NCBI GenBank assembly: GCA_019429105.1
Contig: JAHYJE010000001.1
Location: forward strand, 91,952-155,951
Direction of reading: 5' to 3'
Length of the DNA: 64,000 nucleotides
Origin: Syntrophobacterales bacterium
GTDB taxonomy: Bacteria; Desulfobacterota; Syntrophia; Syntrophales; UBA5619
In this document: positions 6,229 through 21,469 of the stretch, piece by piece
How positions within the stretch are numbered: the first letter of the stretch is position 1
How the letters are laid out: every line of letters begins with the position of its first letter
Made by a program: the position numbers and the translations under genes
The notes under the pieces: generated by a model
What the model saw: only the letters and a program-made list of their open reading frames with translations
The model's database searches: none
What the model was told of the DNA's origin: nothing

Positions 6229-6582
6229 ATGGCCGATTATATTCCAATTCTGATAATTATCGTTTTTGCACTTCTGATCGCATGCCTCATTGTCGGCGCT
6301 TCCTTCATCCTGGGAAACAAAATCTCTCAAAAAACAAAACTTGACACATATGAATGCGGAATGCGGACAGTCGGGCCGACCCGCATGAAGATGAATATCC
6401 GTTATTATCTGACCGCAATGCTGTTTTTGATCTTCGATATCGAAATCATGTTTCTTTATCCCTGGGCCTTGGTTACAGGGAGTCTCAAGCTGTTCGGATT
6501 TCTGGAGATGCTGTTTTTTGTAGTCATTCTCCTCGTCGGTTATCTGTATGTATGGAAGAAAGGGGCCTTGGAATGGGAGTAG
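6229..6582 (+). CDS. nuoA: NADH-quinone oxidoreductase subunit A
   Basis: 117 residues with three membrane helices and the conserved loop [24 protein letters not shown], followed by [13 protein letters not shown], both diagnostic of NuoA. The subunit sits in the complex I membrane arm at the base of the peripheral arm beside the quinone cavity and helps the cysteine loop switch conformation in the catalytic cycle. It is the first gene of a thirteen-gene nuo operon and its 3' end overlaps the start of nuoB by 10 bases. Confidence 0.96.
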
Positions 6583-7067
6583 AAGTTGCCGCGCCCGCCA
6601 CTGTGCAAGAAGTTATCAACTGGGCAAGGAAAAATTCAATCTGGCCGGTTACGTTCGGGCTCGCTTGCTGCGCCCTCGAAATGATGGTTGCCAGTTCCGC
6701 CACCTATGACATCTCCCGCTTCGGCGCCGAGGTTTTTCGCCCCTCCCCCCGCCAGACGGACCTGATGATCGTCGCCGGAACACTAACCAAGAAGATGGCG
6801 CCGATTCTGAGGCGGATTTACGAACAGATGCCGGAGCCCAAGTGGGTCATAGCGTACGGCGCATGCGCCTGCAGCGGCGGGATATTTCAGTCCTACAGTG
6901 TTGTGCAGGGGGTCGATCAGATTGTCCCCGTCGATGTTTATGTGCCCGGCTGTCCGCCCCGCCCGGAGGGATTGCTGAAGGCAATAATCGAACTGCAGAA
7001 AAAGATAGCTGTGGAACCAGCCGGACAGAGAAATCTGGTCAGCTTGCCTTGGGGGAACAATGGATAG
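6573..7067 (+). CDS. nuoB: NADH-quinone oxidoreductase subunit B (cluster N2)
   Basis: 164 residues. [11 protein letters not shown] gives the adjacent cysteine pair, ACACSGGIF the third ligand and VPGCPPRPE the fourth of the [4Fe-4S] cluster N2, the last centre before the quinone. The start is ATG 6573 within the end of nuoA; an open frame extends upstream to 6354 but that is antiparallel-frame run-through of nuoA. NuoB and NuoD together form the quinone-reducing site. The end overlaps nuoC by 8 bases, which suggests translational coupling. Confidence 0.96.
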
Positions 7068-7551
7068 TCGCTCAGCCGGTAATCTGTTAAAGGAAAAATT
7101 CCCGCAGGCAGTCGCGGGAATCGAGGAGTTCAGGGGGGAAACAACCGTTACTGTTGAAGCGCCAAATCTCTTCGAGGTCATGACGTTTCTCCGGGAAAAT
7201 ACCGAGCTTGCCTATGACATGCTCATCGACCAGGCGGGGGTTGATTTTCCCGGCCAGAGTCCCCGTTTCACCATTGCCTACCTGCTGCACAGCATGAAGT
7301 TCAATAACAGGCTCCGGATAAAAATAAAAGTAGCCGCAGACGTTGCAGTTGATTCAGTCAGCGCTATCTGGAAGGCGGCAAACTGGATGGAACGCGAAAC
7401 AGCGGAGATGTTCGGAATAACATTCAAAAATCATCCCAATCCGCAGCATATCTTATTGCCCGATGACTTTGTCGGCTACCCTTTACGGAAGGATTACGAC
7501 GTCAAGGGGCCCAATTTCGATCAACCGTTCCAGGTCTGTTTGGACGAATAA
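7060..7551 (+). CDS. nuoC: NADH-quinone oxidoreductase subunit C
   Basis: 163 residues. The core [12 protein letters not shown] and the C-terminal signature [20 protein letters not shown]...LRKDY are the 30-kDa subunit pattern. It lies in the peripheral arm of complex I against NuoD and NuoB and is structural. Here nuoC and nuoD are separate genes, unlike the fused nuoCD of E. coli. Start ATG 7060 overlaps the end of nuoB. Confidence 0.95.
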
Positions 7552-7579
7552 AAAGAGACTTTTTGAGGACATCAAAGCG

Positions 7580-8755
7580 ATGGCTGAATCACGCACCATG
7601 ACAATCAATATGGGACCGCAGCATCCTGCAACCCACGGCGTGCTGAGGGTGCTTGTGGAGCTTGACGGGGAGAACGTCGCCAAGTCGGAACCTCACATCG
7701 GGTATCTGCACCGGGGAATCGAGAAGCTCTTCGAAACGATGACCTGGCGTCAGGGACTGCCGCTCACGGACCGGCTGGACTACACCAGCGGCATCTCCAA
7801 CAATCTCGCCTATTGCCTCGCAGTAGAAAAACTCCTTGACATCAAGATTCCCCCAAGAGCCCAGTATTTAAGGGTGATGATGGCCGAGCTGCAGCGAATC
7901 GCCGCTCATCTGCTGTGGCTGGGAACTCACGCCCTTGACCTCGGGGCCATGACTGTACTTTTCTATACATTCCGGGAACGGGAGACCGTCCTGGAGATCC
8001 TGGAACTGGCAACCGGCGCGCGCATAACGCCGAGTTTTATCCGCATCGGCGGGCTTGCCGACGACATTCCCGATGACTTTCTTCCCCGCGTGACGGCGTT
8101 CATCGAGGAATTGCCGAAACGGATCGATGATTACGAAACCCTGCTGACCAAAAACCCGATCTGGAAGCGGCGGACGATGAATGTCGCGGCGATGTCGGCA
8201 GAGGATTGCATCAACTACGGGGTGACCGGCCCGGTGCTGCGGGCCTCCGGCGTCAACTACGACGTCAGAAAGGCCTATCCCTATTCGAGTTACGAGGATT
8301 TCGACTTCGAAGTGCCGCTGGGGAAAAACGGCGACGTCTATGACCGCTATCTGGTAAGGCTCATCGAGATGCGTCAGTCAGGGCGGATCGTCAAGCAGGC
8401 CGTCGAGAGACTCCCCGCCGGCCCTGTCGGCGCCGTGGACGCGCTTCAGATCGTTCCCCCCGCCAAACAGGATGTGCAAACTGATATAGCGTCTCTCATC
8501 AGACACTTCAAGATCATGCAGGAGGGCTTTGAACCGCCTCCCGGAGAGGTTTATGCATCCATTGAATCATCGAAGGGCGAGCTGGGCTTTTACGTTGTCA
8601 GCGATGGCTCCAACAAACCCTGCCGGGTAAGGATAAGGCCGCCTTCCTTTATCAATCTCGCCGCCCTGCCGAAGATGATCGACGGGGTTCTGGTAGCGGA
8701 TATTGTCGCCGCCATCGGCAGCATTGACATCGTTTTGGGTGAGATCGACCGGTAG
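7580..8755 (+). CDS. nuoD: NADH-quinone oxidoreductase subunit D (49 kDa)
   Basis: 391 residues from ATG 7580, with GAGG some 11 bases before. The N-terminus TMTINMGPQHPATHGVLRV and the following EPHIGYLHRGIEKL are the NuoD signature; the His in the GPQHPATHG loop lines the quinone-head pocket together with a Tyr further on (DRLDYTSG). The protein descends from the NiFe-hydrogenase large subunit but lacks the cysteine pairs that hold Ni, as expected for true complex I. The gene is 28 bases after nuoC. Confidence 0.96.
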   Translation: MAESRTMTINMGPQHPATHGVLRVLVELDGENVAKSEPHIGYLHRGIEKLFETMTWRQGLPLTDRLDYTSGISNNLAYCLAVEKLLDIKIPPRAQYLRVMMAELQRIAAHLLWLGTHALDLGAMTVLFYTFRERETVLEILELATGARITPSFIRIGGLADDIPDDFLPRVTAFIEELPKRIDDYETLLTKNPIWKRRTMNVAAMSAEDCINYGVTGPVLRASGVNYDVRKAYPYSSYEDFDFEVPLGKNGDVYDRYLVRLIEMRQSGRIVKQAVERLPAGPVGAVDALQIVPPAKQDVQTDIASLIRHFKIMQEGFEPPPGEVYASIESSKGELGFYVVSDGSNKPCRVRIRPPSFINLAALPKMIDGVLVADIVAAIGSIDIVLGEIDR

Positions 8756-8804
8756 GGCGTAATAACGGGTTCGCTACCGTAAAGCTTCGTATTTTGAGAG
8801 AGCA

Positions 8805-10760
8805 ATGACTATGGCAGACGTAATTTTCAGTTCCTGGCAGGACGAAGTGATCGACAACCGCGGAGTCGCGGCGGACGCTAAGGCGTCTGCAAAGACCAAG
8901 CTTCTCGACGAATTCAGCCCGGGAGAGCCGATAAAAGCCTTCCTCGGCTGGGATGGAATCGTCATTCGCGATGCTGACGTTGACATTGTCGGCATGTGCG
9001 CCAGGTACGCCCGGGCCGTCCAGAGCGAATCCTGCGGCAAATGCTTTCCCTGCCGGGTAGGAACCGGCATCATCAGCGACATGTTAAAAAAGATAGCCGC
9101 CGGCGAAGGCACGCATGCGGATATCGATAAAATAAAGGAACTGGCGCCCTCGATCCGGGATGGTTCCAAGTGCTCCATCGGCCAGACCGGCCTGATTCCC
9201 ATCCTGCACGCTCTCCAGTATTTTCCCCGGGCCTTTGCCGAGGCAATTGCCGGCAAGAAGAAGTCGCCGGACGCAAATTACCGCTATTCTGTCACCGCCC
9301 CCTGCCTGAGCGTCTGTCCGAGCGGGCTTGATATCCCCGCTTATATTGAGGAGATCAGCGAGCAGCGTTTCACCCAGTCGCTGGCCACCATCCGCAAGAG
9401 CATCTGCCTTCCCGGGACGTTGGGACGGGTTTGCGTGCGCCCCTGCGAATCAAGCTGCCGCCGGGCCAATGTGGATGACTCCCTGTCAATAAAATATCTG
9501 AAGCGGTTTGTCGCCGATTACGAAATAGACACGAACCGCCATCAGGAAATCCCCACCGCGGCAAAATCAGGCAAAAAGGTTGCAATAATCGGGGCCGGTC
9601 CCGCCGGCGTCTCCTGCGCCAACTATCTGATCCAGATGGGGCATCAGGCAACGATCTTTGAGCGGCACCCCGAGCCGGGCGGAATGGCGGCAATGGGAAT
9701 CCCCGATTACCGCCTGCCGAGGGATATCCTTCATCGCGAGGTGGAACTGGTGCAGGAGTCGGGGGTGGAAATCCGCTATAATGTTCAGGTCGGCAAGGAT
9801 ATCTCCTTCGCCAAGCTTCGCGAGGATTACGATGCCGTCTTCATCGGCGTCGGCGCCCAGGGCAGCATGCCGATGGGGGTGGAAGGCGAGGATCAGAATT
9901 ACGACGGTTATATCCCGGGTATAAAGTACCTGCTGGACATCAATCTCGGTCGCGATCCCTATCCGGCAGGCAAGAAAGTGGTCGTTGTCGGCGGCGGCAA
10001 TGTGGCAATCGACTGCGTGCGCTCCTCCTTCCGCATCGGAAAGCCGGATGTAAACCTGGTTTACCGCCGTTCCAAGGCGGAAATGCCGGCTGATCCCGTG
10101 GAAATCAAGGATGCCGAGGATGAAGAGGTAAAATTCCACTACCTCTGCAACCCCACAAAAATCATTGCCCAAGAAGGAAAGGTTGTCGGGGTTGAGCTTA
10201 TTCGGATGGAACTGGGCGAGCCTGACCAGAGCGGCCGGCGCAGGCCTGTTCCGGTAAAGGGTTCCGAGTTTGTTATTGATGCAGACATCGTCATTCCGGC
10301 AATCGGGCAGCAGCTTGATTTGTCATTCCTGAACGAAGCCGATGGCATAAAGGCCACAAAGCGCAACACCGTAGTTGTTGATCCCGAAATCTTTGAGACG
10401 TCGCAGCCAGGCGTTTTTTCCGCCGGCGACTGCGTCACTGGCCCGGACGTTTTGGTCAGGGCAACCGGCAACGGCAAGCGGGCCGCGGAAAAGATCGACC
10501 TCTATCTAAAAGGGGAGAAGGCGGCGCCCTCTGCGAACGAAAATTTCCGCAACCTCTTTGCCACGTTAGGCGTTTACAATGAAAAGGAACATATCGGTAT
10601 AATCGGCGGGTTGCACAAGTCTCACCTGCCGATGCTTGACCCTCTGGAAAGAAAGTGGAACTTCGCCGAAGTGGAGGATGGTTACACAACGGATGTAGCC
10701 ATAAAAGAGGCCGCCCGTTGTCTGCGCTGCTACAGAATAGGCATGATCGCCCTGGGATAA
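8805..10760 (+). CDS. NuoF C-terminal [4Fe-4S] domain fused to GltD-like FAD/NAD(P) oxidoreductase
   Basis: 651 residues, in the operon slot where nuoE and nuoF normally sit. Residues 1-150 match only the C-terminal end of NuoF: the N3 cluster ligands are visible as SCGKCFPC (Cys 77, 80, 83) and SKCSIG (Cys 123). The FMN- and NADH-binding part of NuoF is absent. From residue 165 on it is a glutamate-synthase small-subunit/DPYD-type flavoprotein: cysteine pairs at 167/171 and 201-218, a FAD dinucleotide loop GAGPAG near 263, a second nucleotide loop GGGNVAIDC near 396, the AGDCVTGP FAD strand near 545 and a C-terminal RCLRC. The likely route is NAD(P)H to FAD to FeS to NuoG. Which nucleotide is used, and direction of flow, are not decided by the sequence. 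Confidence 0.9.
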   Translation: MTMADVIFSSWQDEVIDNRGVAADAKASAKTKLLDEFSPGEPIKAFLGWDGIVIRDADVDIVGMCARYARAVQSESCGKCFPCRVGTGIISDMLKKIAAGEGTHADIDKIKELAPSIRDGSKCSIGQTGLIPILHALQYFPRAFAEAIAGKKKSPDANYRYSVTAPCLSVCPSGLDIPAYIEEISEQRFTQSLATIRKSICLPGTLGRVCVRPCESSCRRANVDDSLSIKYLKRFVADYEIDTNRHQEIPTAAKSGKKVAIIGAGPAGVSCANYLIQMGHQATIFERHPEPGGMAAMGIPDYRLPRDILHREVELVQESGVEIRYNVQVGKDISFAKLREDYDAVFIGVGAQGSMPMGVEGEDQNYDGYIPGIKYLLDINLGRDPYPAGKKVVVVGGGNVAIDCVRSSFRIGKPDVNLVYRRSKAEMPADPVEIKDAEDEEVKFHYLCNPTKIIAQEGKVVGVELIRMELGEPDQSGRRRPVPVKGSEFVIDADIVIPAIGQQLDLSFLNEADGIKATKRNTVVVDPEIFETSQPGVFSAGDCVTGPDVLVRATGNGKRAAEKIDLYLKGEKAAPSANENFRNLFATLGVYNEKEHIGIIGGLHKSHLPMLDPLERKWNFAEVEDGYTTDVAIKEAARCLRCYRIGMIALG

Positions 10761-10776
10761 ACGGTAAGGAAAAGAC

Positions 10777-13194
10777 ATGATTAGCTTGATTATAGATGGA
10801 AAAGAAGTTTTTACCGAGGAGGGGAAGACGATCCTCGAGGCGGCTCGCGCAAGCGGCATCTACATACCTACCTTCTGTTTTCATGAAAAGCTCTCTCCCA
10901 TCGGCTCCTGCCGCCTTTGCCTCGTCGAGGTGGACGGCTGCGACAAGCCGATGACCGCCTGTACAACCCCCGCGCTTGCCGGCATCAAGGTTACGACCCA
11001 ATCCGATAAGCTTCTCCGAATGAGGCGGCAGTTTTTGCAACTGATCCTCACCTCGCACCCGCTCGACTGCCCCCAGTGCGACAAGGGCGGGGAATGTCAG
11101 CTTCAGAACATCTCCTATGAACATAAAATCGAAAAAGCCGAGTACGAAGCCGTTCGCAAGGAGCACCGGGAAGAATACGCGACGCCGCTTATCCGCTACT
11201 GGGAGGCGCGGTGCGTCCTGTGCGGCCGCTGCTTCAACGCCTGCCGGGAGGTATCGGGACGGGCGGCAATCGATATCGTCGGGAACGGCTTTGAAGCGAG
11301 GATCGCGGCCAGCAACGCGGGCGACTGCATCTCCTGCGGGGAGTGCCTCTCGGTCTGTCCGGTCGGCGCCCTGACCGAAAAACTGAGCCCCGTTAAAGCA
11401 AGAACATGGCAAAGCCAGCGGGTTGAGACAACCTGTCCCCACTGCGGCTTTGGCTGTCAGTTGACATTGAACGTCCTGGACGGAAAGATCATAACCAAGG
11501 TCGTAACCGAGAAAAACCTCCCGCCCAATCACGATTCGCTTTGCGTAAGAGGGCGTTTTGGTTATGATTTCGTCAACAGCGACCAGCGGCTCCGGGAACC
11601 CTCGCAGGGCAATCAGAAAAAGACGCTCACCAAAGAAGAGGCGTTGAGCTATACAGCGGAAAACATGAAGAAACTCTCTGCGGAAGGCAAGGGCGTCGGG
11701 TTTATCGTTTCTCCCCGGGCCACCAACGAAGAGCTGTTTCTCATCTCCCAAATCGCCTCTACGCTCAAAAATTCCCGGATCGCTTCGGCTGCGGTTTATC
11801 ATACCGGGAAAATCGCCTCCGCCTTTGCGCGCATGGGGATAAGCCCGGTTTATGATTACGAAAAGATCAAGAGCTGCAAAACAATCGTCGTTGCCGGCGC
11901 CGATTTGCTGATCAACAACCATCTGCTCGCCAACAAGGTCAGAGAGGCGGTAAAATTGACCGGCGCCCGGATTGTGAGCATCGACCCCCTTGACAATTCG
12001 CTCGCCCGCATTGCCAGCGCCCATCTGCAACCGCTTCCGGGGAGTGACGCCGGGGTTTTCAACGCACTTTCCGCCCGGCTCCTCAAGGACGGCAAACACG
12101 ATAAAGCTGCCGAAGCATTTGCCGGTTTTGCAGAATTAAAACAGTCGCTTTCCGGGATTTCGGCAGAAGCATTGCAGACCCCGGCCGGCGTCGACGCCGG
12201 CCTGCTCGATAAGGCGTATCAGCTTATTGCCGATGCCGACAGCGTCTGTGTAATTTTCGCCTCCGGGATCACCGACAATGAGGCGAGTCTGACTGCGCTT
12301 TTGAATTTCTGCCTGCTGAAGGGCCTCCCGGAACGGGGACTCGTCATGGCGACAGCCCTTCAGGCAAACGCCCTCGGCGCCGTTTCGCTGCTGAAGGAAA
12401 TGGCCGCCCCGGACAGTCTCCTGGACGATTCCGGCATCTCCGGAATCTTTCTCTATGAAGACGACCCCTTCCAGTATCTGAACGGCAAAATGGTGAAAAA
12501 ATCCCTCGCCCGGCAAGAGTTTGTAGCCGTTTGCGATATATTGCCGACCAGGGTTATGGAGGGCGCCAGCATCGTCATCCCTTCCGCCGGCTTTGCCGAA
12601 AAGGATGGCTCCTTCATCTCGGGAAACGGCGCCGTAAGCACTGTGCATAAGGCTTGCAGCGGGCCCTCCGCCGGGTTTGACTTCTTAAGCAGCCTGCTGG
12701 GGCTGCTGGGCGGGAAGAGTTATGAGAATTCCCCAAGCGTTACCGCGGAAATTCGCCAAACCGGTCTGTTTGCAAAAGGTGGGGACGGGGTTGAAACGCT
12801 GGCTGTAAAAACCGACAAACCGGCCTTTGCCAAATTTGGCAGTGGAGAGGCCAACCAGCCTGCTCATAAAGAAACCGGCAGGTACAAGCTGATCCTCCGC
12901 GATCTGTTCATGAATCACCAGCTTGCCGACGTGACGGTTTATGGAGAAGGCGTTGGGCAAACTCAGACCGATCTGTTGCGGATCTCCCCCGAGGATGCAG
13001 CGGAACTGAATGTTTCGACCGGAGATGTCGTCGCGCTCGCGGGCGACGCCGGGGCAGCGACCAGCCCGGTTGTCGTCAAAAAGGGCATCCGGAAGGGTTC
13101 GCTGGAGTGCATTCTTTTCAGTAAACATGTTGAAATGATTTCCCTCTTTGCGCGACCGGCCAAGGTAAACGATGTTACCGTAAAAAAGGCTTGA
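10777..13194 (+). CDS. nuoG: NADH-quinone oxidoreductase subunit G (iron-sulfur, molybdopterin-fold)
   Basis: 805 residues. Order: plant-ferredoxin-type [2Fe-2S] domain (PTFCFHEKL...GSCRLCLVEV...ACTTP), the His-ligated segment SHPLDCPQCDKGGECQLQN, a two-[4Fe-4S] ferredoxin part (RCVLCGRCFNAC and DCISCGECLSVCP), then the CPHCGFGC...SLCVRG motif for cluster N7, and a molybdopterin-oxidoreductase-fold body that ends in a small beta domain (LNVSTGDVVAL). The fold is expected to be structural, without Mo. It should receive electrons from the NuoF/GltD fusion encoded just upstream (16-base gap). The body also resembles formate dehydrogenase alpha chains, but the operon context settles nuoG. Confidence 0.93.
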   Translation: MISLIIDGKEVFTEEGKTILEAARASGIYIPTFCFHEKLSPIGSCRLCLVEVDGCDKPMTACTTPALAGIKVTTQSDKLLRMRRQFLQLILTSHPLDCPQCDKGGECQLQNISYEHKIEKAEYEAVRKEHREEYATPLIRYWEARCVLCGRCFNACREVSGRAAIDIVGNGFEARIAASNAGDCISCGECLSVCPVGALTEKLSPVKARTWQSQRVETTCPHCGFGCQLTLNVLDGKIITKVVTEKNLPPNHDSLCVRGRFGYDFVNSDQRLREPSQGNQKKTLTKEEALSYTAENMKKLSAEGKGVGFIVSPRATNEELFLISQIASTLKNSRIASAAVYHTGKIASAFARMGISPVYDYEKIKSCKTIVVAGADLLINNHLLANKVREAVKLTGARIVSIDPLDNSLARIASAHLQPLPGSDAGVFNALSARLLKDGKHDKAAEAFAGFAELKQSLSGISAEALQTPAGVDAGLLDKAYQLIADADSVCVIFASGITDNEASLTALLNFCLLKGLPERGLVMATALQANALGAVSLLKEMAAPDSLLDDSGISGIFLYEDDPFQYLNGKMVKKSLARQEFVAVCDILPTRVMEGASIVIPSAGFAEKDGSFISGNGAVSTVHKACSGPSAGFDFLSSLLGLLGGKSYENSPSVTAEIRQTGLFAKGGDGVETLAVKTDKPAFAKFGSGEANQPAHKETGRYKLILRDLFMNHQLADVTVYGEGVGQTQTDLLRISPEDAAELNVSTGDVVALAGDAGAATSPVVVKKGIRKGSLECILFSKHVEMISLFARPAKVNDVTVKKA

Positions 13195-13303
13195 TTGTGA
13201 AGAAAAAAGAAGTTTCTGAACATAAAAAAAGCTCCCTCGCCAGGCAAGACAACAGGCTCGTTGTTCCTGGGCGGCGGACGCAACTCTTTTCCAAGGGCTG
13301 AAA

Positions 13304-14290
13304 ATGGAACCTTACTACTACACCCTCGAATCTCTGATAAAAATCGTGGTGGTCGTGACCATCCTCATGCTGTGCGTCGCCTACCTGACCTTGGTCGAAC
13401 GCAAGTTCCTCGGTTACCTTCAGGTCAGGGTCGGCCCCAACCGGGTAGGCCCCTGGGGCCTGCTGCAGCCGATCGCGGACGGGATAAAATCCTTTGTCAA
13501 AGAGGACATTATTCCCACAAACGCCGACAAGACGGTTTATGTGCTCGCCCCGATGATTACGTTCGTCACAGCCCTTTCGATGTTCGCCGTCATCCCTTTC
13601 GGCGACAGCGTAACCATCTGGGGCCGCGAAGTTAAACTGGTCATTGCCGACATTGACATCGGCCTTCTCTACATCTTCGCGCTGGGCACCCTGGGAGAGT
13701 ACGGCATTGTCCTCGGCGGCTGGGCTTCGAGCAACAAGTACGCCGTATTGGGCTCGCTCCGGGCTGCGGCGCAGATGATCAGCTACGAGGTAGCCCTGGG
13801 GCTAATCCTCATCGGCACGATCATCCTTGCCGGTTCGCTCAGGCTGACGCAGATTGTCGAAGCGCAGAGGGATGGCTGGTTCATTCTCTACCAGCCGTTC
13901 GCGTTTCTGCTGTACGTTGTCGCGGCGCTGGCCGAGATCAACCGTACGCCGTTCGACATGCCGGAATCGGAAAGCGAGCTTGCCTGCGGCTTCAACATCG
14001 AGTACAGCTCCATGAAGTTCGCCATGTTCATGATCGCCGAGTACGCGCATATTGTCACGGTTTCCGCCCTGACGATTACCCTCTTCTTTGGCGGCTGGCT
14101 CGGCCCATTTCTGCCGGGCCCGGTGTGGTTCATCGGAAAAACATTTGCGATGGTGTTTATCTTCATCTGGATCAGGGGCACCTTCCCGCGGATGAGGTAT
14201 GACCATATCATGAAGCTGGGCTGGAAGTTCCTTTTCCCGGCGGCGCTCGCCAATGTCGTCGTCACCGCTTTAATTGTAGCGCTTAGATAG
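13304..14290 (+). CDS. nuoH: NADH-quinone oxidoreductase subunit H
   Basis: 328 residues, eight or so membrane helices. ERKFLGYLQVRVGPNRVGPWGLLQPIADGIKSFVKED and EINRTPFDMPESESELACGFNIEYSS are textbook NuoH loops; the charged E-channel residues they carry link the quinone site to the proton-pumping arm. ATG 13304 is preceded by AAGGG. The 109-base gap after nuoG is the longest one in the operon and could hold an internal signal, though I see no clear promoter in it. Confidence 0.96.
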   Translation: MEPYYYTLESLIKIVVVVTILMLCVAYLTLVERKFLGYLQVRVGPNRVGPWGLLQPIADGIKSFVKEDIIPTNADKTVYVLAPMITFVTALSMFAVIPFGDSVTIWGREVKLVIADIDIGLLYIFALGTLGEYGIVLGGWASSNKYAVLGSLRAAAQMISYEVALGLILIGTIILAGSLRLTQIVEAQRDGWFILYQPFAFLLYVVAALAEINRTPFDMPESESELACGFNIEYSSMKFAMFMIAEYAHIVTVSALTITLFFGGWLGPFLPGPVWFIGKTFAMVFIFIWIRGTFPRMRYDHIMKLGWKFLFPAALANVVVTALIVALR

Positions 14291-14304
14291 ATGAGGCAAT
14301 TTTT

Positions 14305-14715
14305 ATGATAATTCCGTTGCTGAAAGGTCTCAAGTTAACGTTAAAGGTCTTTTTCTCGAAGTCGGTGACGATCCGCTACCCGGAAGAGAAAAGGGCTGTC
14401 TCGCCGCGCTGGCGGGGCATGCACTATTTCGAAAAGAACGATCAGGGAGAAACGGCGTGCGTCGCCTGCGGCCTGTGCGTCGCCGTCTGCCCTTCTCACT
14501 GCATCAAGCTGGAAATCAGGGAGCGGGAGGATGGCACGCGCTACCCGGGGAGCTATGATATTGACGCCCTGCGGTGCGTCTTTTGCGGATTCTGCCAGGA
14601 GGCGTGTCCGGTAAACGCGATCAGACTGGGCGGGGATTACGAATTCATACACTATTCACGGGCTGATTTTAAACTGACGAAAGAGAGCCTGCTTTCCGCA
14701 AAAAGGATAGGATGA
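14305..14715 (+). CDS. nuoI: NADH-quinone oxidoreductase subunit I (ferredoxin-type)
   Basis: 136 residues. Two [4Fe-4S] motifs, CVACGLCVAVCPSHCI and CVFCGFCQEACPVNAI, are clusters N6a and N6b that pass electrons from NuoG to N2 in NuoB. The N-terminal helix (KGLKLTLKVFF) docks on the membrane arm. The stop codon overlaps the nuoJ start as ATGA. Confidence 0.96.
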   Translation: MIIPLLKGLKLTLKVFFSKSVTIRYPEEKRAVSPRWRGMHYFEKNDQGETACVACGLCVAVCPSHCIKLEIREREDGTRYPGSYDIDALRCVFCGFCQEACPVNAIRLGGDYEFIHYSRADFKLTKESLLSAKRIG

Positions 14716-15251
14716 TGGGTGCAATAAGTTTCAAATTGATTGTTTTTTTCGTTGCGGCGCTTGTGGTTATCGTCTCGTCCCTACTGATGACGACAAGAAA
14801 AAATCCCATCCACAGCGCCCTGTGGATGATCCTGACCTTCTTCGCGATGGCCGTCATTTACCTGCTTCTGAATGCCCAGTTCATCGCGGTGGCGCAGGTT
14901 ATGGTTTATGCCGGCGCGATCATGATGCTGATCCTCTTTGTCATCATGATGGTCAGCCTCGATAACGGCGCGCAGAGCGAACAGAAAAAAATATCCATGA
15001 ACTTCACGAAAAAGGCAGCCTGGTCATTGGCGGTGATAATTCTTCTGCTCGAACTGATCTTCGGCGCCCTTTTTTATCAGACCACAGCGAAAATCGGCTC
15101 TTACCCGGCAGAGGCGGTGACCAGCCTGGGAAACGCAAAAACAGTCGGAACCCTGCTTTACGGTCAGTACCTTTTCCCGTTCGAGATCGCCTCGATTCTT
15201 CTACTGGTAGGGATTATCGGGGCCGTTGTTCTTTCCCGGAAAAGCAAATGA
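14712..15251 (+). CDS. nuoJ: NADH-quinone oxidoreductase subunit J
   Basis: 179 residues, five membrane helices, with the NuoJ helix QFIAVAQVMVYAGAIMMLILFVIMM that contains the pi-bulge helix TM3. It forms part of the membrane-arm core connecting the quinone module to the antiporter subunits. ATG 14712 overlaps the nuoI stop by 4 bases; a second ATG follows at 14715. Confidence 0.95.
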   Translation: MMGAISFKLIVFFVAALVVIVSSLLMTTRKNPIHSALWMILTFFAMAVIYLLLNAQFIAVAQVMVYAGAIMMLILFVIMMVSLDNGAQSEQKKISMNFTKKAAWSLAVIILLLELIFGALFYQTTAKIGSYPAEAVTSLGNAKTVGTLLYGQYLFPFEIASILLLVGIIGAVVLSRKSK

Positions 15252-15308
15252 GGCACGGGATGACTTGGGGGCGCCGTTCATAATCAAACATACCGACAGG
15301 AGTTAGAC

Positions 15309-15620
15309 ATGTTGCAGGAAATTCCAGCAAGTTACTGTTACATCTTAAGCGCCATCGTCTTTGTAATCGGGGCAATCGGCGCCATTACCCGCAAAAACGC
15401 GATCGTCATTTTCATGTCGATAGAGCTGATGCTCAACGCCGTCAACCTGGTTTTCATCTCCTCCGGCAATGCCTTTTCCTCAATGGACGGCTCGGTGTTT
15501 GTTTTTTTCGTGATGACGGTAGCTGCCGTCGAGGCAGCGGTTGGTCTGGCCATTTTTGTAATGCTCTTCCGGATCAAGGGCGCCGTCAATGCTGATGAGG
15601 CAAGCCTCCTGAAGGGCTGA
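15309..15620 (+). CDS. nuoK: NADH-quinone oxidoreductase subunit K
   Basis: 103 residues with three membrane helices. [20 protein letters not shown] and [19 protein letters not shown] hold the two membrane-embedded glutamates typical of NuoK (MrpC-like), which belong to the proton-translocation path. AGGAG lies just before the ATG. Confidence 0.96.
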
Positions 15621-15698
15621 ACGGGCATTGCCGGCTGGAATGAGAAGGACTGCGGGAGTAAAATTTTTTAACAACGCTTTTTAAAGAAGGAAAGATAA

Positions 15699-17687
15699 AT
15701 GGCTGACTACATCTGGCTGATACCACTTTTCCCGGCAATCGGATTCATTTTCAATGGTTTTTTCGGCGCCAGAATGTCCAAGGGCGCAGTTTCCTGGATC
15801 GCCTGCCTGGCGGTGTTTCTCTCCTTTCTCACCGCCGTCGCCATCTTTATCGAATTTCTGCAGATGCCCGCGGCAGCGAGGATCTTCGAAATCAATATCT
15901 ACAACTGGATATCCTCCGGTGAGCTTTACATCCCGCTGGGATTCAAAATTGACGCGCTTTCCCTGGTCATGTCCCTGACCGTCACCGGCGTCGGCTTTCT
16001 TATCCACGTTTATTCGATAGGCTACATGGCGCACGATCCCGGCATCAAGCGGTTCTTCGTCGAACTCAACCTGTTTGTCTTCATGATGCTCGTGCTGGTT
16101 ACCGGCAACAACCTGCTGATGATGTTTGTCGGCTGGGAGGGGGTCGGGCTCTCCTCATATCTGCTGATCGGCTTCTGGTATGAGAAGGACTCCGCGTCGG
16201 ATGCCGGCAAAAAGGCATTTATTGTCAACAGGATCGGCGACTTCGGCTTTCTTTTGGGGATCTTCCTGCTTTTTTTGAGCCTCGGCGCCCAAGGCGTCTG
16301 GACGCTTAATTTCGGAGAAATAAAGACTAACGCCCACCTCCTCAACGGGAGCTTGGTCAGTATAATAACCTTCCTGTTTTTTGTCGGCGCCGTGGGCAAG
16401 TCCGCGCAGCTTCCCCTTTATGTCTGGCTCCCGGACGCAATGGAAGGCCCTACGCCGGTGAGCTCCCTCATCCATGCGGCAACGATGGTGACCGCCGGGG
16501 TCTATATGATCGCCCGTCTCAATTTTCTCTACAGCATGGCCCCCGACACGATGATGATCGTCGCAATAATCGGCGTTTTGACTGCGTTTTTCGCGGCAAC
16601 GATCGGCTTTGCCCAGTACGACATCAAGAAGGTGCTTGCCTACTCGACGATCAGTCAGCTCGGCTACATGTTTGTCGCAGTCGGCGTCGGCGCTTATTCC
16701 GCCGGCATCTTCCACCTGATGACCCACGCCTTCTTCAAAGGTCTGCTCTTCCTCGGAGCCGGCAGCATCATGCACGCGATGAGCGGCGAGCTGGACATGC
16801 GCAAGATGGGCGGACTGAGAAAAAAGATTCCTGTCACCTTCTGGACATTCTTTATCGCCTGCCTGGCGATCGCCGGGATCCCGGGCTTTTCCGGCTTTTT
16901 CAGCAAGGATGAAATCCTCTGGAAGGCCTTCAGCTCCCCGCACGGCCACATCCTGATCTGGTTTCTGGCCGCGCTTACAGCCGGAATGACGGCATTTTAC
17001 ATGTTCCGCCTTCTCTTCAGGGTTTTCTACGGCGAAAGCCACGTCCCGGAGGAGATCAAGCACCACATTCATGAATCGCCCAAGGTGATGACGGTTCCGC
17101 TGATGATCCTGGCCTTTTTGGCCATTGCCGGCGGTTATGTCGGGATACCCCATGTCCTGGGTGGAACCAATCTTTTCGACCAGTTCCTTGCCCCGGTCTT
17201 GGGCGGAGGTACAGCCCATTCGGGAGCGGCAGCCGCCAGCTTCAGTCTCATTAGCAGCGCCTGGGCTTCCGGAGCGGAGGCGGCAGGCGAAGCCTCTCTG
17301 GAAATTACCCTCATGGTCGCCTCGGTTGTAACCGCGCTGATCGGCATCCTCATCGCCTATTGGCTCTATGTCAGCAATACGAAACTCCCCGAAAAGTTCA
17401 CGGCGGCGTTTCCGGGCCTCTTCAAGGTTGTCAATAACAAATACTACGTTGATGAACTCTACGATTTTGTGTTTGTCCGCGGGATCCTGAAAGCGGGGGC
17501 GTTCCTCCTGAAGGTCGTGGATATCGGGATCATCGAAGGAATCGTCAACGGTACGGGCAGTTTCCTGCAATGGGCTGGCGGTCATTTGCGTAAGTTTGAA
17601 TCCGGCGTCGTGCAGCAGTATGCGTTCGGCATGATTCTCGGGGCGATTATCGTCGTCGGCTATATCGTCTTTGCGCCACTTTTTTAA
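15699..17687 (+). CDS. nuoL: NADH-quinone oxidoreductase subunit L (antiporter-like)
   Basis: 662 residues, about 16 membrane helices. MMFVGWEGVGLSSYLLIGFW carries the key TM5 glutamate and KSAQLPLYVWLPDAMEGPTPVSSLIHAATMVTAGVY the broken helix TM7 with its lysine and histidines. The C-terminal part ends in the long lateral amphipathic helix and last TM that brace NuoM and NuoN. It forms the distal proton channel. The gap before it (78 bases) contains GAAGGAAAG as ribosome site. Confidence 0.95.
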   Translation: MADYIWLIPLFPAIGFIFNGFFGARMSKGAVSWIACLAVFLSFLTAVAIFIEFLQMPAAARIFEINIYNWISSGELYIPLGFKIDALSLVMSLTVTGVGFLIHVYSIGYMAHDPGIKRFFVELNLFVFMMLVLVTGNNLLMMFVGWEGVGLSSYLLIGFWYEKDSASDAGKKAFIVNRIGDFGFLLGIFLLFLSLGAQGVWTLNFGEIKTNAHLLNGSLVSIITFLFFVGAVGKSAQLPLYVWLPDAMEGPTPVSSLIHAATMVTAGVYMIARLNFLYSMAPDTMMIVAIIGVLTAFFAATIGFAQYDIKKVLAYSTISQLGYMFVAVGVGAYSAGIFHLMTHAFFKGLLFLGAGSIMHAMSGELDMRKMGGLRKKIPVTFWTFFIACLAIAGIPGFSGFFSKDEILWKAFSSPHGHILIWFLAALTAGMTAFYMFRLLFRVFYGESHVPEEIKHHIHESPKVMTVPLMILAFLAIAGGYVGIPHVLGGTNLFDQFLAPVLGGGTAHSGAAAASFSLISSAWASGAEAAGEASLEITLMVASVVTALIGILIAYWLYVSNTKLPEKFTAAFPGLFKVVNNKYYVDELYDFVFVRGILKAGAFLLKVVDIGIIEGIVNGTGSFLQWAGGHLRKFESGVVQQYAFGMILGAIIVVGYIVFAPLF

Positions 17688-17743
17688 GGCGTTTGGTCAA
17701 CATTGAACAGATGTTTTTTTATTTTATTACACTGGATTGGTGA

Positions 17744-19267
17744 ATGAACATGACATATCCCCTTTTGAGCGTACTCATTTTTCTCCCACTGGCCGGGGCC
17801 ATCGTCGTAATGCTGCTGCCGCGAAACAACCCCGCGCTTGCCAAGGGATTGACGCTTGTCTGGACGATCATCGAATTTGCGCTTTCTCTGCCGCTCTTTT
17901 TCAGTTTTGACGAAACGACCGCCGGGATGCAGTTCACGGAAAACGTCTCGTGGTTTCCGGAGCTGGGCATCAGCTATAACCTGGGAATCGATGGGTTCAG
18001 CATGCTGCTGGTGATGCTCACCACGTTCCTGACGGTGATTTGCGTACTGTCATCCTGGGATGCCATCAAAGACAAGGTAAAGGAGTACTACTTCGCTTTT
18101 TTGATTTTGGAAACGGCGCTGGTCGGGGCGCTCTGCGCGCTTGATCTCGTACTTTTCTACATATTCTGGGAACTGATGCTGGTGCCGATGTATCTGCTGA
18201 TCGGCGTCTGGGGCGGGCCTCGCCGGATCTACGCGGCGGTAAAGTTTTTCCTCTACACGATGGCGGGCAGCGTGCTGATGCTGCTGGCGATCATGGCTCT
18301 CTATTTCCATTACGGCGCCGAGTCCGGTTCCTACACCTTCAACCTGTTTGAACTCTACAAGGCAAATATTCCGCTTGCCAAACAGTACTGGCTTTTTGCC
18401 GCCTTCGCCCTTTCCTTTGCGATCAAGGTGCCGATGTTCCCGTTTCACACCTGGCTGCCGGACGCCCATACCGAGGCGCCGACTGCCGGCAGCGTGATCC
18501 TGGCCGGGGTCATGCTGAAGATGGGAACTTACGGATTTCTGAGATTCGCCATTCCGCTGTTCCCGCAGGCAGCCTTTGCCGCGGCGCCGATCCTCTCCAC
18601 ACTTGCCCTCATCGGGATCGTTTATGGGGCGATCATGTGCATCATGCAGAGCGACTTGAAGAGGCTCATCGCCTATTCCTCGGTCAGCCATCTCGGCTAC
18701 GTGATGCTTGGCCTCTTTGCCTTCAACATGCAGGGTCTGGAGGGCGGCATGTACCAGATGCTGAACCACGGGATCAGCACCGGCGGCCTCTTCCTCGCGG
18801 TAGGCATGATCTATGAAAGAAGACATACGCGGATGATCGCCGAGTTCGGCGGACTTGCCAAAACCATGCCGATCTTTGCCGTATCCTTCCTGATCATCAC
18901 CCTGTCCTCGATCGCCCTGCCGGGCACAAACGGCTTTGTCGGCGAGTTTCTCATCTTGCTGGGGACCTTTCGCAGCAACGTGAGCTTCGGCGTTATCGCA
19001 ACTACCGGGGTCGTTCTTAGCGCCGTATATATGCTCTGGATGTTTCAGCGCGTCATGTACGGGGAGATAAAGAAAGAGGAAAATCGGAAATTAAAGGATG
19101 TCAACAAGCGCGAAATAACCATTCTCGTGCTGATAATTTTTTTCATCTTCTTCATGGGCATTTACTCCCAGCCGTTTTTCAAGAAGATGGACGTCTCGGC
19201 GACTAATTATCTTCAGTATATTCATGCCAAAGCCGCTGCTCCCGCCATATCGGTAAAGGCTCAGTAA
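17744..19267 (+). CDS. nuoM: NADH-quinone oxidoreductase subunit M (antiporter-like)
   Basis: 507 residues, 14 membrane helices. LVLFYIFWELMLVPMYLLIGVWGG (TM5 Glu) and FAIKVPMFPFHTWLPDAHTEAPTAGSVILAGVMLKMGTYG (TM7 Lys, TM8 loop) are the antiporter-fold signature of NuoM, the middle proton channel. The neighbours nuoL and nuoN are in the usual order. Confidence 0.95.
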   Translation: MNMTYPLLSVLIFLPLAGAIVVMLLPRNNPALAKGLTLVWTIIEFALSLPLFFSFDETTAGMQFTENVSWFPELGISYNLGIDGFSMLLVMLTTFLTVICVLSSWDAIKDKVKEYYFAFLILETALVGALCALDLVLFYIFWELMLVPMYLLIGVWGGPRRIYAAVKFFLYTMAGSVLMLLAIMALYFHYGAESGSYTFNLFELYKANIPLAKQYWLFAAFALSFAIKVPMFPFHTWLPDAHTEAPTAGSVILAGVMLKMGTYGFLRFAIPLFPQAAFAAAPILSTLALIGIVYGAIMCIMQSDLKRLIAYSSVSHLGYVMLGLFAFNMQGLEGGMYQMLNHGISTGGLFLAVGMIYERRHTRMIAEFGGLAKTMPIFAVSFLIITLSSIALPGTNGFVGEFLILLGTFRSNVSFGVIATTGVVLSAVYMLWMFQRVMYGEIKKEENRKLKDVNKREITILVLIIFFIFFMGIYSQPFFKKMDVSATNYLQYIHAKAAAPAISVKAQ

Positions 19268-19319
19268 AATGAACGGATTTCATAAAGTTTTTTCGACTAA
19301 TACGAAAAGGTAGGAAATT

Positions 19320-20777
19320 ATGGTTGTACAGATACCTGAAATGGACTTTGGATGGCTCATCCCGGAGATCGTCATCACCGTCTTCGCGATCGCCACGCTC
19401 CTTTTGACCCTGTTGCGCAAGAAGAACGGCACCTGGTTTCTGGTGGAGGCCATGCCGCTTATCGGGGCCATCATCGCGCTTTATTACACATTTCAGTTAT
19501 GGAACGGCAATCTGGACATCTTCAATCATCTTTACACGATCGACAATTTCGGGGTATTTTTCCGGGGAGTCGTTCTTGCGATCCTGATCCTCGTCACCCT
19601 GCTTTCCTATCGCTATGTTGACCGGGAGGATATGGCCCGGGGGGAATATTACACCCTGCTTCTCTTCGGAACGCTCGGAATGATGATCATGGTGTCATCG
19701 AACAACTTTATCACCATCTTTATCGGGTTGGAGTTGATGTCAATCTCCATCTATATCCTCTGCGGTCTGATGGGCGGGAACGCCAAATCCGTGGAAGCCT
19801 CCCTCAAATATTTCCTGCTCGGCGCCTTTGCCACCGCCTTTCTTCTGTACGGCATGGCCCTGATTTACGGGACTACCGGCATGCTCGATATCCGGGAAAT
19901 CGCCGGATATTTGAACAGCGGCAACTTTATGGCGACGCCCACCTTCATGGCGGGTCTGGCCCTTTTGATTGTCGGTTTCGGCTTCAAAACAGCCTCCGTG
20001 CCTTTTCACATGTGGACGCCTGACGTCTATGAGGGGGCGCCGACCTCGATCACCGCCTATATGGCAACCGGCGTCAAGGCCGCCGCGTTCGGCGCGTTTT
20101 TGAGGGTGCTGTACACGGCTTTTCATCCCTTTCTGCCCGGCTGGACATTCATGTTATGGATTCTCGCCGTCGCCACGATGACTTTGGGAAACCTGACCGC
20201 ACTGCGCCAAAACGACGTCAAAAGAATGCTCGCCTATTCGAGCATCGCCCACGCCGGATACATCCTGATCGCCATGACCGTAGGCGACCGCTCCCTTTCC
20301 TCCACTGTTCTGTATTATCTGCTTGTCTATAGCTTCATGACGATCGGCGCCTTTGCGATTGTAATGATCCTGGGACGCAAGGGCTTTCCGAACACCGGCA
20401 TCGAATCCTACGCCGGTCTCGCCGGCAGACATCCGGTGATTGCAGCGGCAATGGCTGTCTTTCTCCTCTCCCTGGCAGGCATTCCCCCGCTGGCCGGCTT
20501 CATGGGCAAGTTCTATGTCCTGACCGACGCGATCCGTTCCGGTTATTACTGGCTTGCGGTAATCGGGGTGCTCAACAGCGTGGTGGCCGTCTATTACTAC
20601 CTGCGGGTCATCATGTACATGTACTTCAAGGAACCGGAAGCGGAGATCGGCATCCCCGATTTTTCCATCGGCTCCACGGTTGCCATCGCCATCAGCGTTG
20701 CGGCGGTTTTCTATCTCGGCATATTCCCACGCGTGTTTCTAATGATTGCGCACAGCTCGACCAATATTTTCATGTAA
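19320..20777 (+). CDS. nuoN: NADH-quinone oxidoreductase subunit N (antiporter-like)
   Basis: 485 residues, 14 membrane helices. FIGLELMSISIYILCGLMG and FKTASVPFHMWTPDVYEGAPTSITAYMATGVKAAAFGAFLR identify NuoN, the proximal proton channel. It ends the nuo operon. The 82 bases between it and the convergent minus-strand cassette show no convincing terminator hairpin. Confidence 0.95.
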   Translation: MVVQIPEMDFGWLIPEIVITVFAIATLLLTLLRKKNGTWFLVEAMPLIGAIIALYYTFQLWNGNLDIFNHLYTIDNFGVFFRGVVLAILILVTLLSYRYVDREDMARGEYYTLLLFGTLGMMIMVSSNNFITIFIGLELMSISIYILCGLMGGNAKSVEASLKYFLLGAFATAFLLYGMALIYGTTGMLDIREIAGYLNSGNFMATPTFMAGLALLIVGFGFKTASVPFHMWTPDVYEGAPTSITAYMATGVKAAAFGAFLRVLYTAFHPFLPGWTFMLWILAVATMTLGNLTALRQNDVKRMLAYSSIAHAGYILIAMTVGDRSLSSTVLYYLLVYSFMTIGAFAIVMILGRKGFPNTGIESYAGLAGRHPVIAAAMAVFLLSLAGIPPLAGFMGKFYVLTDAIRSGYYWLAVIGVLNSVVAVYYYLRVIMYMYFKEPEAEIGIPDFSIGSTVAIAISVAAVFYLGIFPRVFLMIAHSSTNIFM

Positions 20778-20859: not shown

Positions 20860-21231
20860 TCAGGCTTTATAAGTGTGATGTAGGCCATGGTCCTGGCTTG
20901 CCTGCATTGCGTCGGCCATCTCGCCGACCATGGGCACGCCGTTCCGGTATTGGAACGGCCACATGCTCCGGGGATCAAAAAAGGCCACACGGTCGCCGTC
21001 GCCCAAAACGTGGTTCAAATCCGGCTGCAGACCGGGCATGGCGCTCAACTTGCCGTTGATGAACGTAATCCCCCGCTCCGCGGTCGGCATTTTCAGGCGG
21101 GCCATTAAATCATTAACCGTGCTTCCCGAAGGCAGGCGCACCTGCAGGTTGGCGTAGCTCCTCCCCTTGCCCGACTCTCCGCCGTAAAGCGCCAAAGCGC
21201 CATAGAGCCAGGCATCTATTGCAACCTCCAC
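20860..21231 (-). CDS. MoaD/ThiS-fold protein without the C-terminal Gly-Gly
   Basis: 123 residues from GTG 21231, one base after the stop of the MoaD gene; GGAGGGG in that gene's last codons is the ribosome site (an upstream in-frame TTG at 21246 is less likely). Residues 30-100 read like a beta-grasp fold (LQVRLPSGSTVNDLMARL...GITFINGKLSAM...LGDGDRVAFFDP), the pattern of MoaD and ThiS. The usual C-terminal GG is missing; instead about 35 further residues follow, ending in a His-rich tail. It is thus not a standard sulfur carrier. Its place behind the aldehyde ferredoxin oxidoreductase suggests a role in that enzyme's cofactor or assembly, which is inference only. Confidence 0.6.
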   Translation of the reverse strand: MEVAIDAWLYGALALYGGESGKGRSYANLQVRLPSGSTVNDLMARLKMPTAERGITFINGKLSAMPGLQPDLNHVLGDGDRVAFFDPRSMWPFQYRNGVPMVGEMADAMQASQDHGLHHTYKA

Positions 21232-21232
21232 G

Positions 21233-21469
21233 CTATCCCCCTCCAATCAGCGGAAATATCCCGACTTCACTGCCGGCTTCCAGCGGCCAATCCACAGGCC
21301 GGGCACGGGCATTGACGTAAACCATCTTCACTTCTTCAGCAGGCACGTCCAACTGACGGAGCAAATCCGCTACGGTAGCTCCCTCGGCCAAGTCAACTTC
21401 AAAGGGACGTCCCGGCGCGCCGGGAGCGTAATGGCGCAAGGTGGCAAAAAGTTTCGCTTGAACGCGCAT
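21233..21469 (-). CDS. MoaD-like sulfur-carrier protein of the AOR cassette
   Basis: 78 residues from ATG 21469 with GAGG before it. The beta-grasp pattern VQAKLFATLRHYAPG...VDLAEGATVADLLRQL...VYVNARARP...LEAGSEVGIFPLIGGG ends in the Gly-Gly needed for adenylation and thiocarboxylate formation. MoaD supplies sulfur to make the dithiolene of molybdopterin; genes of this type often accompany tungsten aldehyde oxidoreductases. It is translationally coupled to the following MoaD-fold gene. A fragment reading in another frame overlaps its 5' end. Confidence 0.8.
   Translation of the reverse strand: MRVQAKLFATLRHYAPGAPGRPFEVDLAEGATVADLLRQLDVPAEEVKMVYVNARARPVDWPLEAGSEVGIFPLIGGG

Follow-up and report, generated by a model that had tools for sequence, protein, structure and literature searches.

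The locus analysed here raises the question of how electrons enter a complex I whose operon lacks the usual NADH-oxidizing subunits. The window, the whole 64,000-nucleotide stretch of Syntrophobacterales DNA that was analysed, carries the nuo genes in the order nuoA, B, C, D, fusion, G, H, I, J, K, L, M and N (6229 to 20777), with short gaps around the fusion gene. No nuoE or nuoF is present in the nuoA-N operon, and no Pfam match to PF01512, the FMN/NADH domain, was obtained in the fusion or in the operon. The membrane arm (NuoA, H, J, K, L, M and N) is complete and in order. NuoB, NuoD and NuoI retain the N2, N6a/b and quinone-site residues in the alignments with E. coli; therefore, the remainder looks like a working quinone reductase. 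The NuoD encoded here is also the only close NuoD copy in the genome. Compared with the canonical 14-subunit NADH:quinone oxidoreductase, the sequence appears to provide the Q module and the membrane arm, and it lacks the PF01512-bearing NuoE/NuoF part. A preliminary description of this DNA had placed a NuoF C-terminal/GltD fusion at the position of NuoE and NuoF and had found the other Nuo subunits all present in order. Both statements are confirmed, the first by the Pfam domains, the missing PF01512 and the operon order, and the second by inspection of nuoA-N. An aldehyde:ferredoxin oxidoreductase-like gene (21663-23432, minus strand) lies convergently behind nuoN with a MoaD/ThiS-like neighbour (20860-21246, minus strand); both were assigned by eye.

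Table 1. Position of the nuo genes and of the main features of the fusion and its partner in the window.
Feature	Position	Strand	Basis or remark
nuoA	6229..6582	+	ORF call; homologs in same order
nuoB	6573..7067	+	N2 cluster cysteines kept ([20 protein letters not shown]); E. coli NuoB alignment
nuoC	7060..7551	+	PF00329
nuoD	7580..8755	+	PF00346; HPATHG and DRLDY quinone-site motifs kept (E. coli alignment)
Putative FdhB/SfrB-type fusion: NuoF N3 domain + GltD-type FeS/FAD/NAD(P) enzyme	8805..10760	+	ATG start, 651 aa
Fusion: N3 domain, aa 42-150, ligands C77 C80 C83 C123	8928..9254	+	PF10589; E. coli NuoF alignment
Fusion: Fer4_20 FeS domain, aa 164-243, C167 C171 C210 C214 C218, K233	9294..9533	+	Pfam; family alignment
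Fusion: FAD + NAD(P) domain, aa 257-557, GxGxxA 396-401, YRR 420-422, R303	9573..10475	+	Pfam; family alignment
Fusion: invariant C-terminal CxxC, C639 C642	10719..10730	+	Family alignment
nuoG of formate-dehydrogenase type (predicted)	10777..13194	+	Cluster ligands, model comparison
NuoG Tyr341-His342, where active relatives carry Sec-His	11797..11802	+	Comparison with relatives
nuoH	13304..14290	+	ORF call; gene order in homologs
nuoI	14305..14715	+	Eight N6a/N6b cysteines kept (E. coli alignment)
nuoJ	14712..15251	+	ORF call; gene order in homologs
nuoK	15309..15620	+	ORF call; gene order in homologs
nuoL	15699..17687	+	ORF call; gene order in homologs
nuoM	17744..19267	+	ORF call; gene order in homologs
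nuoN	19320..20777	+	ORF call; gene order in homologs

The fusion protein joins the N3 domain to a GltD-type enzyme. Three Pfam domains are arranged along the chain: NADH_4Fe-4S (PF10589; residues 64-146, 84.9 bits), Fer4_20 (PF14691; residues 164-243, 79.1 bits) and Pyr_redox_2 (PF07992; residues 257-557, 114.5 bits). The N3 ligands line up with those of E. coli NuoF. In 70 aligned fusions, the cysteines C77, C80, C83 and C123, the group C167, C171, C210, C214 and C218, and the C639-x2-C642 pair are invariant or nearly so, as are G396-x-G-x-x-A401, Y420-R-R422 and R303. GltD and DPD carry two further cysteines near the N-terminus. The GltD part of the fusion is without these two cysteines and has the invariant C-terminal CxxC instead, a pair that would substitute for them and complete the first GltD cluster. 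The fusion had been described as holding a complete GltD with its own FeS cysteines; FeS cysteines are indeed present, and completeness has to be amended at the N-terminus.

The AlphaFold model of the fusion has a mean pLDDT of 92, and superposition of its GltD part gives Z 51.8 with Nfn-ABC (9bov), Z 50.4 with StnC (8oh5) and Z 40.6 with NfnI (5jca), whose NADP(H) domains match the fusion across 400-490 residues (VIA Z 51.8 to 39.5). StnABC of Sporomusa (8oh5) and Nfn-ABC (9bov) resemble the arrangement in the window in that a GltD NADPH domain feeds a NuoG-like FeS chain (VIA Z 50 to 52). Unlike in the window, their NuoG-like subunit contains the GltD domain as an insertion, N3 resides on a separate NuoF-like bifurcating subunit, and there is no membrane arm. 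None of the 60 matches listed by a sequence search of solved structures joins N3 and GltD within one chain in this order. As a single chain with N3, Fer4_20 and FAD/NAD(P) domains, the protein may be better named an FdhB/SfrB-type subunit. An FdhA/SfrA-type partner is encoded adjacent to it in the operon (NuoG), and the same applies to a stand-alone paralog in the same genome (C45; L037:4847-9651), an N3-GltD fusion that lies beside a selenocysteine FdhA (Sec-FdhA; 824 bits to Fdh-alpha). A further FdhA-like gene, of the Cys form, is located at 10402-12099 of that locus.

By its sequence and its predicted structure, the window NuoG is of the formate-dehydrogenase (FdhA/SfrA-like) type. It carries the ligands of N1b (C34/45/48/62), N5 (H94, C98/101/107), N4 (C146/149/152/194) and an N7-type cluster (C220/223/227/256), together with an extra [4Fe-4S] set (C156/184/187/190) that is absent from E. 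coli NuoG; an eight-cysteine dicluster is present as in formate dehydrogenase. The retained extra cluster could form a bridge between N4 and the N7-type cluster. The model of this subunit matches the alpha subunit of NAD-linked formate dehydrogenase with Z 36.5 over 790 aligned residues, compared with Z 31.3 for mycobacterial and 29-30 for plant and mitochondrial complex I NuoG. In the tree, it groups with FdhA-type proteins; resolution is only partial at the deep forks and the branch of E. coli NuoG is very long, and therefore no ancestral state is claimed. The score against TIGR01591 (formate dehydrogenase alpha) is 211.7 bits, below the curated cut-off of 666. At the site where the Sec relatives have L-U-HSS, the window protein reads VYHTGK. 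Since Tyr-His replaces Sec-His, the protein has probably lost its formate activity, and the module is likely to work between NADPH and menaquinone. SfrAB reportedly has no formate dehydrogenase activity either, in an account attributed to Kaufmann and Lovley (2001). The retention of all NuoG clusters including N7, and an intact chain of cluster ligands from N3 and NuoG onward, had been predicted earlier and agrees with these ligands. Replacement of the NADH module also stands, but the formate-dehydrogenase type of the NuoG partner had been overlooked, and it changes the story.

We consider it fairly probable that, in the complex I encoded by the operon, a two-subunit module of the NADP-dependent formate dehydrogenase/SfrAB type has taken the place of the N module (NuoEFG). 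The domains, the cluster ligands, the gene order, their conservation and their recurrence across the phylum can be read from the sequences. The fusion would act as the FdhB/SfrB-like subunit and 'NuoG' as the FdhA/SfrA-like subunit; both are assigned to the Nuo core because of their operon position, whereas SfrAB-like stand-alone pairs show that the two can also exist apart from complex I. NADPH would deliver its electrons to the FAD of the GltD part. Single electrons would then pass from the FAD through two GltD [4Fe-4S] clusters to N3 and/or N1b, and onward through N4/N5 of NuoG, N6a/b and N2 to menaquinone, with the membrane arm pumping protons. In the reverse direction, NADP+ would be reduced by menaquinol and the proton motive force. 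The formate branch of the window complex would end blind, which would leave NADP(H) as the only evident soluble partner.

NADPH would be the likeliest donor because the fusion shares its domain layout with Moorella FdhB and is similar to SfrB. FdhB of the NADP-dependent Moorella enzyme comprises 4Fe-4S, ferredoxin-like and NADP-binding domains (PMC5736913). By this published description, the beta subunit of the W/Se FdhAB of Moorella thermoacetica matches the fusion in its domain set, and the alpha subunit is a selenocysteine FdhA as in the C45 pair. Unlike the window module, Moorella FdhAB is soluble, stands outside complex I and has an active formate dehydrogenase, whereas the alpha subunit in the window has lost Sec/Cys. 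SfrAB of Geobacter sulfurreducens also combines, by description, a GltD-like SfrB with a NuoG-like SfrA (PMC7483475), and differs in being soluble and not bound to a Nuo core. SfrB has been compared with StnC, in which GxGxxA is read as NADP(H)-binding (PMC7483475). The donor had been left open in the preliminary description (NADPH or another donor via FAD), and a changed nucleotide preference would turn the complex into a normal NADH dehydrogenase that uses another flavin. We regard NADH as an unlikely donor. GxGxxA and YRR (R421, R422) are invariant in the 70 aligned members, SfrAB is an NADPH:Fe(III) oxidoreductase (PMC7483475) and Moorella FdhAB is NADP-dependent (PMC5736913). Thus NADPH appears to be the sensible part of the earlier suggestion, although its preference over NADH draws on motifs and distant homologs.

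The fusion is a common arrangement in the phylum and not an isolated oddity. A contig scan with a single fusion protein yielded three loci, and the wider sampling was performed on whole genomes, 297 of which (mostly MAGs) were taken evenly from the phylum. The fusion lies inside a nuo operon in 41 of these genomes, which belong to many families; in 40 further fetched loci it lies outside a nuo operon or the contig is too short to tell. Most sampled genomes of the window's own family have a close nuo-type form (nine contexts checked). In a second species of the genus, the fusion is 87% identical and the gene order is the same; in this comparison, the fusion has a dN/dS of ~0.07 and NuoG one of ~0.11, with synonymous sites near saturation. 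A chance fusion, a misassembly and a pseudogene are excluded by this conservation (the 87% identical genus-mate, the recurrence in the phylum and the dN/dS of ~0.07).

Nuo-linked and stand-alone forms alternate in several groups of the fusion tree. Well-supported branches force at least four changes, fewer of which may be true because two of the loci counted as stand-alone (L089 and L092) are at contig ends. Pairs of the fusion with NuoG/FdhA are accordingly common outside nuo operons (the 40 sampled loci, some on contigs too short), and 11-subunit complexes are known (PMC5736913), so the pair might be a soluble SfrAB-like enzyme that is merely encoded in the operon, with the Nuo core fed by ferredoxin at NuoI in the 11-subunit style. 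This arrangement is distinctly improbable, given that the fusion is kept between nuoD and nuoG/H in 41 sampled genomes of many families, that the canonical NuoEFG takes the same operon positions, and that NuoG keeps the N1b/N4/N5 ligands. Several variants of the arrangement were also seen. In one family with otherwise stand-alone forms, an SfrAB-like fusion and NuoG pair follows shortly behind nuoI-N (L106:430-13959), and a short NuoG-N-like protein of about 240 aa is the fusion's partner in other families of the order (L138-L147). Beyond the phylum, an N3-GltD fusion sits between nuoD and a divergent nuoG in an Arcobacteraceae genome (L035:3769-11289). The nearest named record is a MAG labelled Syntrophus aciditrophicus, a species reported to be without the membrane part of complex I (PMC8805022).

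The partner of the fusion is the alpha subunit of a selenocysteine formate dehydrogenase in 18 of the 41 nuo operons. In many relatives, the gene in the NuoG slot is split by one in-frame UGA within the motif CARL-U-HSSTVAGL, and this UGA sits in the formate dehydrogenase active-site column of the alignment. The set contains 30 such UGAs (18 of them nuo-linked); each is followed by a predicted SECIS-like hairpin, whose apical loop is GGUCU, GGACU or GGGCU in 27. The single-sequence folding z-scores of these hairpins are not significant alone, and therefore the argument for SECIS elements rests on the recurrence of the hairpin. A frameshift as the cause of the split was rejected on the single in-frame UGA at the active-site column and the recurrent hairpin behind it. 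tRNA-Sec scored above the cut-off in all 13 genomes tried. When the UGA is read through, the nuo-linked proteins tested reach 862-868 bits against TIGR01591, and a Cys variant (L044) reaches 916, compared with the cut-off of 666 (proteins scored: L051, L073, L046 and L044). In six of the 13 genomes, the slot protein is the only NuoG-like match that covers the whole N-terminal query; thus, no separate NuoG is left over there. At the Sec site, further nuo-linked proteins carry Thr, Ser, Asp, Gly, Ala, or Cys without His. In five operons, a Sec-FdhA lies directly upstream of nuoA. One genome (G024) has a nuo operon with the fusion and without nuoG (L047:6833-18533); on the same contig, a Sec-FdhA lies beside genes that, judged by eye, resemble those of EtfAB and [NiFe] hydrogenase (L165:5083-7770). 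In another (G095), rnf-like genes stand directly before a nuo operon with Sec-FdhA (L108:689-5786). A PF01512 match near that operon was considered as a true NuoF and set aside, since its neighbours look like rnf genes and it is probably RnfC. G021 also has a PF01512 match near its nuo operon.

In the Sec forms, formate could enter or leave via the N7-type and extra clusters, and the module could interconvert formate, NADPH and quinol. This leads to a broader proposal, which in our judgement could equally well hold or fail: a phylum-wide complex I family in which NuoG would be an active selenocysteine formate dehydrogenase and NuoEF would be replaced by an NADP(H) diaphorase, that is, a proton-pumping formate/NADPH:menaquinone oxidoreductase. 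In syntrophs it could operate in reverse, with the proton motive force and menaquinol yielding formate and NADPH, and the window complex would be a relative without the formate site. It has long been asked how syntrophs drive electrons uphill from menaquinol, formed in acyl-CoA oxidation, to formate. A complex I with a formate dehydrogenase and an NADPH diaphorase as substitute for the NADH module would be a direct answer driven by the proton motive force. The family also bears on the kinship of NuoG and formate dehydrogenase, as one slot holds states from an active-looking Sec-FdhA to a dead FdhA-like NuoG.

The GltD fold also suggests a different use of the FAD. NfnB has the same fold, and R303, which aligns with the NfnB Arg assumed to point at N5 of the FAD, is invariant; for Geobacter, a complex I that bifurcates (Nuo-Bfu) has been put forward (PMC9304861). 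An NfnB-like FAD could then couple NADPH to quinone and ferredoxin simultaneously, in bifurcation or confurcation. We give this reading a slim chance, as the second flavin subunit (NfnA, StnAB or BfuBC) is not encoded in the operon, and StnC has the corresponding Arg, yet its FAD does not bifurcate (PMC10482914).

Three PF01512 matches occur in the genome, all in NuoF-like proteins with a NuoE-like neighbour; once traced, none of these three genes is of the complex I type, and no complex I-type nuoEF was found elsewhere in the genome. Two of them (C59, L156; C65, L157) belong to clusters in the order HdrA-MvhD-NuoE-NuoF-NuoG-N, which is the bamEFGHI order as judged from gene order and sequence likeness, with no family model. 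The bamEFGHI genes belong to class II benzoyl-CoA reductase. These bam-like clusters suggest anaerobic degradation of aromatic compounds. The third (C27) is of the HydB type, being longer and carrying additional domains. Although the genome thus holds three NuoE/NuoF-like pairs, NADH input in trans from one of them is scarcely credible, because two pairs lie in the bam-like HdrA clusters and the third is HydB-type, each of the three sites has its own short NuoG-N-like match, and the N3 domain, normally part of NuoF, is already supplied by the fusion.

The preferred reading, an exchange of the N module for an FdhAB/SfrAB-type pair, is partly preceded by known systems. NuoEF replacement is already known from Epsilonproteobacteria (PMC4585668) and Nuo-Bfu (PMC9304861). 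Geobacter Nuo-Bfu likewise appears as a complex I with NuoEFG swapped for another anaerobic input module, which, unlike in the window, is the bifurcating BfuABC that uses NADH and ferredoxin (PMC9304861). In epsilonproteobacterial complex I, NuoEF is also replaced in an otherwise normal operon, but the replacements are other NuoE/NuoF-like proteins with flavodoxin or ferredoxin as the donor (PMC4585668). The new element is that the NuoG partner, too, is of the formate-dehydrogenase type. No earlier description of an FdhB/SfrB-type NADP(H) subunit in complex I, or of a formate dehydrogenase as NuoG, was found in the literature searched, a scope with subscription journals mostly outside it. In Seep-SRB1g, fdhF2 is located beside 'nfnB' (PMC10553843), and these genes are possibly a stand-alone fusion pair. 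A related fusion also lies beside an [FeFe] hydrogenase on a Collinsella replicon.
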